A stretch of DNA of 47,154 nucleotides from Gammaproteobacteria bacterium. Its GTDB lineage: Bacteria; Pseudomonadota; Gammaproteobacteria; SZUA-229. This document shows, in pieces, positions 32,323 to 46,013 of this stretch (its first letter is position 1; every line of letters begins with the position of its first letter). The notes below the pieces were generated by a model. It was given only the letters and a program-made list of their open reading frames with translations. It did not search any database and was not told where the DNA came from. The DNA lies in assembly GCA_029881275.1 (NCBI GenBank), contig JAOUMX010000005.1, positions 1 to 47,154 of the forward strand, given 5' to 3'. Both the position numbers and the translations under genes were made by a program.

Positions 32323-33285
32323 TTATTTAACGTGAACAGATTCAATAAAATGCTGCTTATTAAGATTCAGTACAATATCAGCTCTTGAAGGCATTTCATC
32401 CAGTGTGGCTCGTGTAATACGTTCATAATGCATCACAAACCGTTCCAGCTCTGTTTTTCCCATAACTTTATTATTCTCTGCTGATAGCCCAGACGATAAT
32501 GATCTTAATTTACTTTCCTGTAAATTTCGCCACTCTATGACACTGCCAAAATCTGGCGCTCGTAACATGATCAGAATATCAATCAAAGAAAACAAATCAC
32601 GGTATATCCCTTTAAGCTGATTGTTCGCAAAACTACGCCAGATCATAGCAGGGTCTTCTGTACGCTCAAGTTCATTTACCGGTATTTGTAACTCATCTTC
32701 TGTCTGTGCCTGAGACCCGACACACCAGCCTTCAAAAATAACAATATCCACTGCTTCTTGCTGAATATGCCAACATTTTTCAGAAACTCTATCATCGACA
32801 GCCTTATCAAAAGCAGGCACAGCAATACCCTTTTCTCCTGTCTTTAATCGACTGAACAACTGAATACCTGAAAGCACATCATGGGTACCCGGAACACCTC
32901 GTGTTATGAAGAGCGGATGCACAGTTTTTGACATCAACAGCCGTTGTTCTCTGGTTTTGTATAAATCATCGATCGACAAACTCAGTACAGACTTATTAAA
33001 TCCCTTCTCAAGTATCAGAGCAATTACTTTTGCCAGCGTTGATTTACCGGATCCCTGAGCACCATTAAGCCCGACGATGACTGGTTTATTGTTATAACAG
33101 TGAGCCAGCCAGGCAGATAACGGCAAAAAAACTTCTTCGAAACTACGCTCCATCTCTGAAGAAAACTGAATTGCTTCTTTCTGTAACAATTTCTTAAACA
33201 CTGGCAGTATTGATTGTTTTAACTGCTGTTTATCTGCTTCAGATAAAAACGTTAACTGGTCAGGCCATAATCCGGATTCATTCAT
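32323..33285 (-). CDS. D-glycerate 3-kinase-like P-loop kinase
   Basis: A 320-aa kinase with a Walker A GAQGSGKST (residues 75-83), then SLSIDDLYKTREQR, HPLFITRGVPGTHD and FEGWCVG, the set seen in GLYK-type D-glycerate 3-kinases and YggC/YLR-type relatives. Glycerate 3-kinase makes 3-phosphoglycerate from glycerate. The N-terminal 60 residues are a helical extension also seen in relatives. It stands alone between an unknown gene and nhaD, so context gives no pathway. A different small-molecule substrate cannot be excluded. Confidence 0.8.
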   Translation of the reverse strand: MNESGLWPDQLTFLSEADKQQLKQSILPVFKKLLQKEAIQFSSEMERSFEEVFLPLSAWLAHCYNNKPVIVGLNGAQGSGKSTLAKVIALILEKGFNKSVLSLSIDDLYKTREQRLLMSKTVHPLFITRGVPGTHDVLSGIQLFSRLKTGEKGIAVPAFDKAVDDRVSEKCWHIQQEAVDIVIFEGWCVGSQAQTEDELQIPVNELERTEDPAMIWRSFANNQLKGIYRDLFSLIDILIMLRAPDFGSVIEWRNLQESKLRSLSSGLSAENNKVMGKTELERFVMHYERITRATLDEMPSRADIVLNLNKQHFIESVHVK

Positions 33286-42281: not shown

Positions 42282-42854
42282 ATGATTGGTAAAAAGAATA
42301 TTGTGTTTGGTTTTTTATATTTAGTCGTCACCGCTGCACTTGGACCGGTCATGGTCACGATGTATGACGACTATTACACCGCAATTGACGAAAAACAACA
42401 GCTGGTAGGAAGGCTCCAGGCATTACAGCAGAATCAGTTTGAAGAAGACCTGGAAACATTAAGCGCCGAACAAATTGCCAGAGCAAATACTGACGGAATC
42501 CTGAGCCTGAATAAAATACTGAATATTGAAAACTCAATTGATAGCATCAAAGGCGGCGCACATGCACATGGCAATCTTGAAGCGCTGTTAAATATTATTA
42601 TTGGAGTTGTTCTTGGTTATCTACTAGTAGCTAGCTGGTTAAAACAACTCATTAGCTGGCTTTTTATAACTGGCGCCATCATGCACTCTGGCATGCTATA
42701 TGTTTCACGCATATTTGAATCTACATGGGCAGAAAGCATATTAAATACAGGAATTGGCCCAATATGCCTGTTATCTGGCCTGTTGCTGGCAGGTATTGCC
42801 AGTGCCATTGGTTATCAGACAGGCAAACAGAAGGCTAGCGCTCCAGATATTTAA
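42282..42854 (+). CDS. Unknown four-helix membrane protein with a His-rich loop
   Basis: A 190-aa protein I cannot assign. Predicted helices lie at about residues 7-28, 101-119, 122-141 and 156-178. The 70-residue loop between helices 1 and 2 has a charged coiled part (about 35-65) and ends in HAHGN (residues 94-98) at the mouth of helix 2; His135 lies in helix 3. Such His placement could bind a metal or haem, but that is speculation. Ribosome binding is strong (GAGGG, about 8 bases before ATG). Its last 20 bases overlap the 3' end of the convergent fdxA gene. Confidence 0.75.
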
Positions 42855-43158: not shown

Positions 43159-43448
43159 AGCGCACCCTCGGTAGACATACTTCCATCCATAAGAGTAATC
43201 TTATATTCCTATGATTTAGCTTAAAAAATTAGCCAGAATGAGAAACGTATCATACTTCCACAATCGTTAATAGAAAGACCACCCATTCAGGGGGTGCCAG
43301 CACCCTAAAATCAACTATACTAGTACTGCATTCTCGGTTAAATACCATGCAGTTACTGGTTTAATTCATTGCCAGTGTCTTAATTGATTATCTCACCCAA
43401 TTGATAACTCTTCTATTAAAACTATTACTTAGGTTATAGAGGTTTATC
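43159..43448. other. Intergenic region between fdxA and the coiled-coil protein gene
   Basis: About 290 bp holding divergent promoters and no ORF I believe. A short GC-rich hairpin, GGGTGC-CA-GCACCC, lies at 43292-43305. The coiled-coil gene's promoter candidate is listed separately. The sequence turns clearly more AT-rich from here to about 46030. Confidence 0.6.
43401..43428 (+). promoter_or_regulatory. Candidate promoter of the coiled-coil protein gene
   Basis: TTGATA (43401-43406), a 16-base spacer and TATTAC (43423-43428) fit a sigma70 promoter with a leader of about 15 bases. A strong Shine-Dalgarno GAGG (43439-43442) precedes the ATG by six bases. Confidence 0.4.
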
Positions 43449-45011
43449 ATGCGTATCTCAAAAAAAATATCAACTGCCGTATTTATACTGACTTTTCTGC
43501 TGGTCAATAATGCTTTCGCAAAAGACAGCCATCGAAACGACTACAAAAAGCCCAATACCCACAAACTTGAATCATCTCAACCCAAGAATGATAAAAAACA
43601 CAATCATGGACGTCCTTTTCAGGCGCTTCTCACTTTGATTGAAGAAAACAAGTCTTTGATTAACGCCAATCAGCAGGACAATATCAATCAGGATCAGATT
43701 TTATTAAATTTAATTGAATCTAACAAATCTCTCATCGAAAGCAATCAAACTCTAAATGCCAGTCAGAATAAAAACATTTTAGAAATGCTTGCGTCCTACC
43801 TTAACGTAATAGAAACCAATCACCAGGACAACATCAGTCAGGACCAGTTACTGATGAATATGATTGATGAAAGCAAAGCATTCACAACTGCTCAAAATCA
43901 GGCTTTGATCGGACTGATTGATTCAAATACAGCACTCATCAACAATAATCAGAATACCAATATCAATCAGGATCAGATGCTACTCAGTATGATCAATGAC
44001 AGTAGACTACTGATAGATGCAAATCGAGCAGATATTGCGAATTTAACACTGGCAACAAGTGACTTAAAACTAAAGGTAACTTCTCTAGATAATGAAATTA
44101 TTGTTATACAAGATAAAGTGACAACCAACGAAAACGAACTTCGTAGTGTGCTCTCACAACTACAGCAATCTAATAATCAGATCTCATTAATTACACAGGA
44201 CCTGTTAAATCTGTCCGCAACGCATACTGCTGATTTACAGACGGTCAATAATGAGATTGCATGGTTAAAAGCACAGGTCTCTGGATTAGATCAGGAACTT
44301 AAAGCACTCGCTGAAAACCTGTCTAAAAAACTTACCGATCTTAATACTGCAATCTCTGAAAATTCAATTGCACTTGACGGCTTAATGAATGAAATACTGT
44401 TACTTACAGCTGAAACCACTCAGATTACAGCGATGATTAGCAGTTTGAATACCGCCATTACGGATCTTGAACAACGTTCATCTCAACAGGAACAACAACT
44501 CGGCATACTGGCTCAGCAATTTACATCCATGGGCGAACAATTAGCCACCATTACTAACCCTGCAAGCGTACCTGTTAACCTTACAGGTGTTCATGCGGAG
44601 TATACATTCGACAATAGAACAGTCTATTTCTGGAAAACACCACCTTGTGCCGATCTAAATCTATTTGAGAATTTCTGCCAGAATCGAGGCTTGAACTGGT
44701 GGCGTGCAAAATCACAGGCAGATGCCCAGAAACTGATTGATTATGGATACAATTTAGACAGCAATCATACATGGATACAGATATTTGGCGTAACAACACA
44801 AAAAGGGACAGCCAGTGGTATTGCTGGTTTACTTGATGGATTTAGCGTCAACGTTGACCAACCTGCTTGTATGGCTGATTCAACAACTGGCTTTACCGGT
44901 ATCCGTAAAAAACCATGTTCCATGTGTAATCCAGAAGATAATAACAATAAGAGCTGTTGTTGGGATGTTGACCACCAATATGACTGGTTCGTTTGTGAAT
45001 CAATCAATTAA
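43449..45011 (+). CDS. Exported coiled-coil repeat protein with Cys-rich C-terminal domain
   Basis: A 520-aa protein I do not recognise. A signal peptide (about 1-24, NAFA cleavage) is followed by a basic, low-complexity stretch (25-55). Next come six Asn/Gln/Ile/Leu-rich repeats of about 25 residues (60-192; units like LLNLIESNKSLIESN), then continuous coiled coil (about 195-365). A globular C-terminal domain (378-520) has eight Cys (400, 410, 474, 490, 493, 503, 504, 516). Its WIQIFGV and final YDWFVCE recall C-type lectin-like folds, but only loosely. This looks like a stalk carrying a disulfide-rich binding head, exported to the periplasm or surface. No anchor, sortase motif or secretion partner is seen. 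Confidence 0.8.
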   Translation: MRISKKISTAVFILTFLLVNNAFAKDSHRNDYKKPNTHKLESSQPKNDKKHNHGRPFQALLTLIEENKSLINANQQDNINQDQILLNLIESNKSLIESNQTLNASQNKNILEMLASYLNVIETNHQDNISQDQLLMNMIDESKAFTTAQNQALIGLIDSNTALINNNQNTNINQDQMLLSMINDSRLLIDANRADIANLTLATSDLKLKVTSLDNEIIVIQDKVTTNENELRSVLSQLQQSNNQISLITQDLLNLSATHTADLQTVNNEIAWLKAQVSGLDQELKALAENLSKKLTDLNTAISENSIALDGLMNEILLLTAETTQITAMISSLNTAITDLEQRSSQQEQQLGILAQQFTSMGEQLATITNPASVPVNLTGVHAEYTFDNRTVYFWKTPPCADLNLFENFCQNRGLNWWRAKSQADAQKLIDYGYNLDSNHTWIQIFGVTTQKGTASGIAGLLDGFSVNVDQPACMADSTTGFTGIRKKPCSMCNPEDNNNKSCCWDVDHQYDWFVCESIN

Positions 45012-45251: not shown

Positions 45252-46013
45252 ATGACAACATTAAATCCCATTCAGGCTTTACTTGATAAATTAAGAAATG
45301 AATTCATTGCTGAATTACCAGGGCGGATCGAGGAAATAGAAAAGCTTATTCTTACTCTAGATAGCGCTGATAATTATGAAGAGCTTTACAGACATATACA
45401 CAGCCTGAAAGGCGCTGGCGGGACACATGGAATACAAATCATTTCTGTCATCTGCCACAATCTTGAGACATATTTACAAACCAGAAAGGATTCTGGAGAT
45501 CTAAATTCGACAGCATGCATAGATCATTGCCTCAAGTATATAGATCTATTAAATAAAACTTACAAAGAAAGCACAAACTCAAAAAATCAACTTAATCGGA
45601 TAGAAGCCAAACTCGGTGAACTTACAGAATTAGAATCAGCCCATAAGTATACAGCTCTGGTACTGGAATCATCTAATCTACACATTAATCTAATAAAACA
45701 ATCACTAAGCTCATTATCTTTAGCTATTGAGACACATGACAATGGATTAAAAGCACTTGAATTACTGCTGCATAAAAAATACGACCTCATCATTACAGGA
45801 ATGGAAATCAATGAATTAAATGGTGAAGCGCTGATCTCAGCAGTACGTTTATCTAAAGCTATAAACAAAAACACTAAATGTATTTTATTAACCACCAGAA
45901 AACCCGCTAAGCCTAACAGAATGACTGATCCTGATAGAATTATTTCACGCAGTACAGATTTAAGCACCCAACTTCTGGAAACCACAAAAGAACTATTAAA
46001 AGAAATAAATTAG
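45252..46013 (+). CDS. HPt domain protein with degenerate receiver domain
   Basis: A 253-aa signalling protein. Residues about 8-105 form a histidine phosphotransfer domain with the phosphorylatable His50 in HIHSLKGAGG. A linker follows, then a receiver-like domain (about 133-250). The usual acidic pair after strand 1 is replaced by Glu-Ser (ALVLESSNLHINL), and the phosphoacceptor Asp of strand 3 is Gly183 (YDLIITGMEINELNG). It should therefore accept phosphate on His50 but not pass it to its own receiver, which may be a binding module. No histidine kinase or response regulator is adjacent. Ribosome binding is weak. Confidence 0.82.
   Translation: MTTLNPIQALLDKLRNEFIAELPGRIEEIEKLILTLDSADNYEELYRHIHSLKGAGGTHGIQIISVICHNLETYLQTRKDSGDLNSTACIDHCLKYIDLLNKTYKESTNSKNQLNRIEAKLGELTELESAHKYTALVLESSNLHINLIKQSLSSLSLAIETHDNGLKALELLLHKKYDLIITGMEINELNGEALISAVRLSKAINKNTKCILLTTRKPAKPNRMTDPDRIISRSTDLSTQLLETTKELLKEIN

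Follow-up and report, generated by a model that had tools for sequence, protein, structure and literature searches.

A cysteine-rich, likely C-type-lectin-like head on a coiled-coil stalk, with relatives on collagen and other bacterial stalks

The 47,154-nucleotide stretch of DNA analysed here (the window) encodes a protein composed of a long coiled-coil stalk and a cysteine-rich C-terminal domain, which raises the question of whether such a protein is exported, what its head resembles and whether it binds a ligand. The reading frame (43449–45011, forward strand) specifies 520 residues, with the strand and length given by the original prediction, which had likened the product to an exported adhesin or trimeric fibre head. 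An AGAGG ahead of the ATG and a terminator-like hairpin behind the stop codon indicate a real gene that is probably transcribed alone. Its layout is summarized in Table 1. We modestly favour reading the product as a multimeric protein that is secreted and serves as an adhesin or matrix lectin, with the architecture of an animal collectin or of Legionella Lcl.

Table 1. Features of the stalk-and-head gene and its immediate surroundings, in window coordinates
Feature	Coordinates	Strand	Basis
Likely ribosome-binding site AGAGG, six bases 5' of the ATG	43437..43441	+	Sequence
Predicted Sec signal peptide, residues 1–24, MRISKKISTAVFILTFLLVNNAFA	43449..43520	+	Read from the translation
Basic Lys/His-rich linker, residues 25–56, pI 10.0	43521..43616	+	Composition
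Six 25/18-residue coiled-coil repeats (7+7+11 / 7+11), residues 60–202	43626..44054	+	Self-identity, hydrophobic period
Heptad coiled-coil stalk, residues 203–372	44055..44564	+	Hydrophobic period; gap-free ortholog alignment
C-type-lectin-like head (predicted), residues 373–520, eight Cys	44565..45008	+	AlphaFold2, Foldseek, 16 homologs
Terminator-like hairpin, 15–19 pairs, bidirectional, directly 3' of the stop codon	45022..45066	.	Sequence

The stalk was examined for periodicity at two levels. Self-identity within residues 56–200 was highest at a lag of 25 (z = 7.5 against shuffles), followed by 68 (equal to 25+25+18), 50 and 32, and the ortholog from a second genome of the genus gave peaks at lags of 25, 57, 82, 75, 32 and 18. 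Of the six repeat starts originally proposed, all but one were recovered (residues 60, 85, 110, 135 and 178), the fifth lying at residue 153 and not 152, with steps of 25, 25, 25, 18 and 25. Hydrophobic periodicity was 3.56–3.58 residues in the repeats and 3.52 in residues 200–372, the latter agreeing with the long coiled coil said to follow the repeats. Neither value was reached by any of 500 shuffles, and the stalk pattern is accordingly, at the level of sequence, that of a real coiled coil. A 7+7+11 coiled coil has a period of 25/7 = 3.57; since 25 decomposes into 7+7+11 and 18 into 7+11, the first stretch reads as a mixed heptad/hendecad coil in which the short unit would drop one heptad and keep register, the same one-heptad deficit noted originally. 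No 75-bp tandem array was detectable at the DNA level in the repeat region, indicating that the repeats are old. The stalk contains no Cys in translation. No meaningful Pfam match was obtained for the coiled coils of the window protein or its ortholog, and NCBIfam matches to SMC and PspA, far under the cut-offs, were set aside as generic coiled-coil similarity.

All eight Cys of the protein lie within its last 148 residues (about 140 in the original estimate, which also counted eight), at positions 400, 410, 474, 490, 493, 503, 504 and 516, and the YDWFVCE ending was found at residues 511–517. The head is acidic overall (pI 5.0). Its alignment with 16 relatives (A5, 17 sequences) retained 21 columns invariant between two subfamilies, and the distribution of Cys losses within it points to a pairing scheme. 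Subfamily 1 has both Cys400 and Cys503, and subfamily 2 has neither; Cys474 and Cys490 are lost together in L021 and L025, with L026 irregular at this place; and Cys493 and Cys504 are both missing in L029. Although each co-loss represents only one or two evolutionary events, the pattern suggests four disulfides, 400–503, 474–490, 493–504 and, by remainder, 410–516. Cys410 and Cys516 are invariant in the 17 sequences and occupy the places of Cys1 (helix 1) and Cys4 (last strand) of the outer disulfide in C-type lectin-like domains (CTLDs), suggesting that they form this canonical bond.

Structure prediction and structural search of the head returned CTLDs. The first AlphaFold2 model, built from 8 sequences, reached a pLDDT of 83 and a pTM of 0.81, and the second, from 17 sequences, 88.8 and 0.85. 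For both models the best 50 Foldseek matches in the PDB were all CTLDs, with CD93, CD69, Ly49C and langerin among the leading matches of model 1 and tetranectin and the trimeric collectins CL-K1 and SP-A among those of model 2; C-type-lectin-like proteins were also among the leading matches in the viral library. Model 2 runs through two N-terminal strands, two helices, a strand, a long loop and further strands to a last strand ending in FVCE, an order that fits the CTLD topology of N- and C-terminal strands, two helices, a long loop and a final strand. The scores were modest (E 0.008–0.08, the best being 0.008 and 0.010; TM 0.33–0.51), and the CTLD fold is therefore taken as very likely rather than proven. 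At the level of fold the lectin-like head originally proposed has held up: neither a head devoid of a lectin-like fold nor membership in a known cytoplasmic or structural family was encountered.

Sequence searches placed the head outside existing models. At E up to 10, Pfam gave no match for the 17 heads except one stray in one member, and neither PF00059 (Lectin_C) nor PF07603 (DUF1566) matched any of them. NCBIfam matches to the head were at chance level, PDB sequence searches with the single head or with profiles returned nothing meaningful, and no description of the family was found in the literature, of which coverage was partial. The head is a family without a Pfam or NCBIfam model. Comparison with Myxococcota Lectin_C by hhalign was not significant (probability 8%); this non-significant alignment places Cys410 on CTLD Cys1 and TWIQ on the WIGL strand, but in a repeat run profiles with shuffled columns equalled the score of the real one, and the comparison was consequently not used as evidence of kinship. 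Motif content is also atypical. W505-D506 is invariant in the alignment, the calcium–sugar motifs WND and EPN/QPD are absent from it, and the head carries an unusual SCCWD where WNDxxC would be expected. Canonical calcium-dependent sugar binding is therefore not supported.

The head might instead be another small disulfide-rich alpha/beta domain, possibly metal-binding or enzymatic. Such a reading would account for TM-scores below 0.52 with no match at E 0.001, for the lack of profile-level similarity to Lectin_C and for the SCCWD motif, but it is rendered quite improbable by the convergence of the best 50 PDB matches of two models and the viral C-type-lectin-like proteins on a single fold, and by the position of the invariant Cys pair at the CTLD outer disulfide.

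Among 1,959 genomes sampled in all, the head was found mostly in Myxococcota. L006, L010, L014, L015, L016 and L018 lie in Myxococcota-type genomes, with L006 and L010 representing two copies within one genome. The window head is single-copy in its own genome. L019–L026, likewise from Myxococcota-type genomes, form a second subfamily, and L029 comes from another class of the window's phylum, where it is the sole carrier in 78 genomes. The tree separated the two subfamilies (100/99) and placed the window head in subfamily 1, where the ortholog alone is firmly supported as its closest relative. Two of three genomes in the genus carry the head; the 51 other genomes searched in the order, some of them incomplete, gave no match. 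This patchiness suggests horizontal transfer or domain shuffling. Three candidate relatives were rejected, L004 as a chance match with internal stop codons and L012 and L013 because both read as methionyl-tRNA synthetase with a short WW..SQ resemblance.

In all 16 relatives the head is the last domain, at the extreme C-terminus, while the region preceding it changes. Pfam recognized MopE metal-binding repeats in L019, Dicty_CTDC repeats in L026, STIG1-like repeats in L016 and Collagen in L029, the last with 53 uninterrupted Gly-X-Y triplets; a MopE-like pattern was evident by eye in L020, L022, L023 and L025, and L021 and L024 are nearly stalkless. An extracellular rod or array of repeats thus appears common to the carriers, as would suit a binding head that is exported. 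Recurrence of the same head on different rods in other bacteria, collagen included, makes it probable that the head is a mobile module for binding surfaces or sugars. In L029 (793–1929, forward strand), a short CPTGQAVTGFDGSGNLIC segment joins collagen to head, and similar segments follow the collagen repeats of other fibres from bacteria and phages. Separately, in the Myxococcota-type genome G075, the reading frame immediately following a head gene (L010:1197–2567, forward strand) specifies a collagen-like protein of the Gly-X-Y type that has a C-terminal domain of its own.

The oligomeric state of the stalk bears directly on its mode of action. Leu predominates at d and residues are mixed at a, a composition that does not separate dimer from trimer. 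For L029, 53 triplets read as a collagen triple helix imply a trimer, and the occurrence of the same head on that stalk makes a trimeric fibre plausible for the window protein, for which we consider a trimer reasonably probable. A dimeric coiled coil, acting as a surface receptor- or enzyme-binding factor rather than as a trimeric fibre, would be compatible with the residues at a and d, and many of the matched CTLDs act as dimers, CD69 and Ly49 being examples. Nevertheless, L029 implies a trimer at least in that protein, and collectins, tetranectin and langerin, which are trimers, are also among the matches; on balance the dimer is unlikely.

A further possibility is that the protein serves as a structural element of the matrix or surface, in which function resides in the coiled coil and a ligand-free head nucleates oligomer folding or caps the rod. 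In Lcl and in eukaryotic collagens the C-terminal heads assist trimerisation of the stalks (PMC11162425), the canonical sugar-binding motif is absent here, and conservation is equal in the two parts (pN/pS of 0.23 for the stalk and 0.22 for the head, against the ortholog). Yet the same head terminates the nearly stalkless L021 and L024 as well as Cys-rich or MopE stalks, for which trimerisation is unnecessary, and 21 invariant columns would exceed what a cap needs. This scaffold role is accordingly rather unlikely, and a real binding function of the head carries a good degree of probability. The nature of the ligand is less constrained, a glycan having about an even chance.

Comparison with the ortholog indicates that the gene is maintained by selection. 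The ortholog is syntenic, sharing the order uvrA, a 185–190-residue protein, fdxA (other strand), the head gene, an Hpt/receiver gene, rplQ and rpoA, and differs by one extra gene downstream of the head gene. Identity was highest in the head (73%), followed by the heptad stalk (70%), the repeats (56%) and the N-terminus (residues 1–56; 40%), where the linker region diverges fast. Units of 25 and 18 differ in count and order between the two species, whereas residues 203–372 align without gaps. The overall pN/pS was 0.29, with synonymous sites saturated, and together with the stalk and head values it demonstrates purifying selection at the sequence level.

Several neighbouring genes deserve mention in their own right. 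The extra gene of the ortholog locus (L005:4413–4934, reverse strand), which the window lacks, is flanked by the head gene and the Hpt/receiver gene and reads like a cyclic-nucleotide-binding (Crp-like) protein. In the window, 42282–42851 (forward strand) encodes a 190-residue protein with hydrophobic stretches and no Pfam match that adjoins uvrA and is kept in the ortholog locus; 45252–46010 (forward strand) encodes a fusion of Hpt and receiver domains with no Pfam output domain, whose position 3' of the head gene is conserved in the two genomes; and 32326–33285 (reverse strand) is a 320-residue reading frame with no Pfam match.

This context also bears on a phage tail fibre or prophage remnant as the source of the gene. 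Coiled-coil or collagen stalks with CTLD-like tips do occur in phage receptor-binding proteins described in the literature, but a signal peptide is apparent, the flanks are housekeeping genes (uvrA, fdxA, rplQ and rpoA), and searches of plasmids and viral contigs with the head gave no match, phage matches being at chance level. The genomic context refutes this source, which we regard as extremely improbable, and a plasmid origin was likewise rejected.

Export of the protein is quite likely. The leader reads A-F-A at the cut and lacks a lipobox Cys, and the N-terminus of the ortholog is a hydrophobic leader too. The absence of an anchor, as originally proposed, was borne out: no Pfam membrane anchor or YadA-type barrel was found in the protein, and the C-terminus is a soluble head. 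The accompanying claim that no secretion system is present is true of the annotated part of the window, where no secretion genes were seen, but does not extend to the genome. Besides the apparent signal peptide, contig C201 of the same genome carries a type II gspC–M cluster with gspC, D, E, F, G, H, J, K and L above the NCBIfam cut-offs and a gspM-like gene. GspD exceeded its cut-off in seven of the eight carrier genomes tested, compared with two of 14 control genomes. Type II systems export folded, disulfide-bonded and often multimeric proteins, and the window protein may follow this route, for which the export signal is not readable from sequence.

Combining these observations, we propose that Sec would export the protein into the oxidising periplasm, where the head would fold as a CTLD with four disulfides and the stalk would assemble as a coiled coil, most likely of three chains. 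Once folded, the multimer would leave the cell via type II secretion. Its basic N-terminal tail may retain it weakly at the cell surface or in the matrix, and its heads would bind a glycan or surface polymer with avidity. For the family as a whole, we lean slightly towards a previously unmodelled, disulfide-rich CTLD-like head that bacteria have combined with secreted stalks of interchangeable kinds (coiled coil, collagen, STIG1-like, MopE and Dicty_CTDC), in practice a set of bacterial collectins that bind surfaces or glycans. Such a family, with its defined Cys pattern, adds to the few known bacterial C-type-lectin-like modules, and at least five kinds of stalk under one head provide a natural set for testing how stalk and oligomer contribute to binding. 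L029 in particular would represent a bacterial version of the collectin layout whose head is rich in cystine, in contrast to the disulfide-free head of Lcl.

Comparison with known systems sharpens this picture. Trimeric autotransporter adhesins (type Vc) share the coiled-coil stalk and invasin and intimin the CTLD tip (general knowledge; PMC11162425), but the window protein has no beta-barrel anchor and ends in a soluble head. The variable proteins of diversity-generating retroelements also use bacterial CTLD-fold binding domains (literature), whereas the window head is conserved rather than hypervariable and is present once in its genome. Myxococcota Lectin_C proteins come from the phylum of most head relatives, yet PF00059 misses the window head, which lacks EPN and WND and shows only the hhalign similarity reported above. 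As a separate observation, Lectin_C is common in the phylum to which G075 belongs, with 185 of 321 genomes positive (L039–L062; up to 14 matches per genome), and was detected in none of 14 control genomes.

Animal collectins and other lectins with coiled necks (CL-K1, SP-A, tetranectin and langerin) resemble the window protein in placing a disulfide-bonded CTLD at the C-terminal end of a stalk or neck; they are among the best fold matches of model 2, and the outer disulfide would lie at the same place. They differ in having no significant sequence or profile similarity to the window head, which has two extra putative cystines, shifted Cys (SCCWD against WNDxxC) and no EPN/QPD.

Legionella Lcl combines a collagen stalk with a CTLD-like C-terminal domain without disulfides, is a trimer by MALS and crystallography, occurs in the culture supernatant and on the cell surface, is discussed among type II exports and binds sulfated glycosaminoglycans via a positive surface (PMC11162425). 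The window protein differs in having a head outside PF07603, eight Cys in that head, a coiled-coil instead of a collagen stalk and an overall acidic head as opposed to the positive binding surface of Lcl. The order of stalk and C-terminal CTLD-like head is nevertheless the same, L029 sharing even the succession of collagen and head; signal peptide, stalk and predicted head fit an Lcl-like layout, and secretion genes are present in the genome. Lcl is thus the closest functional model, and by this analogy the window protein appears to act in a comparable way.
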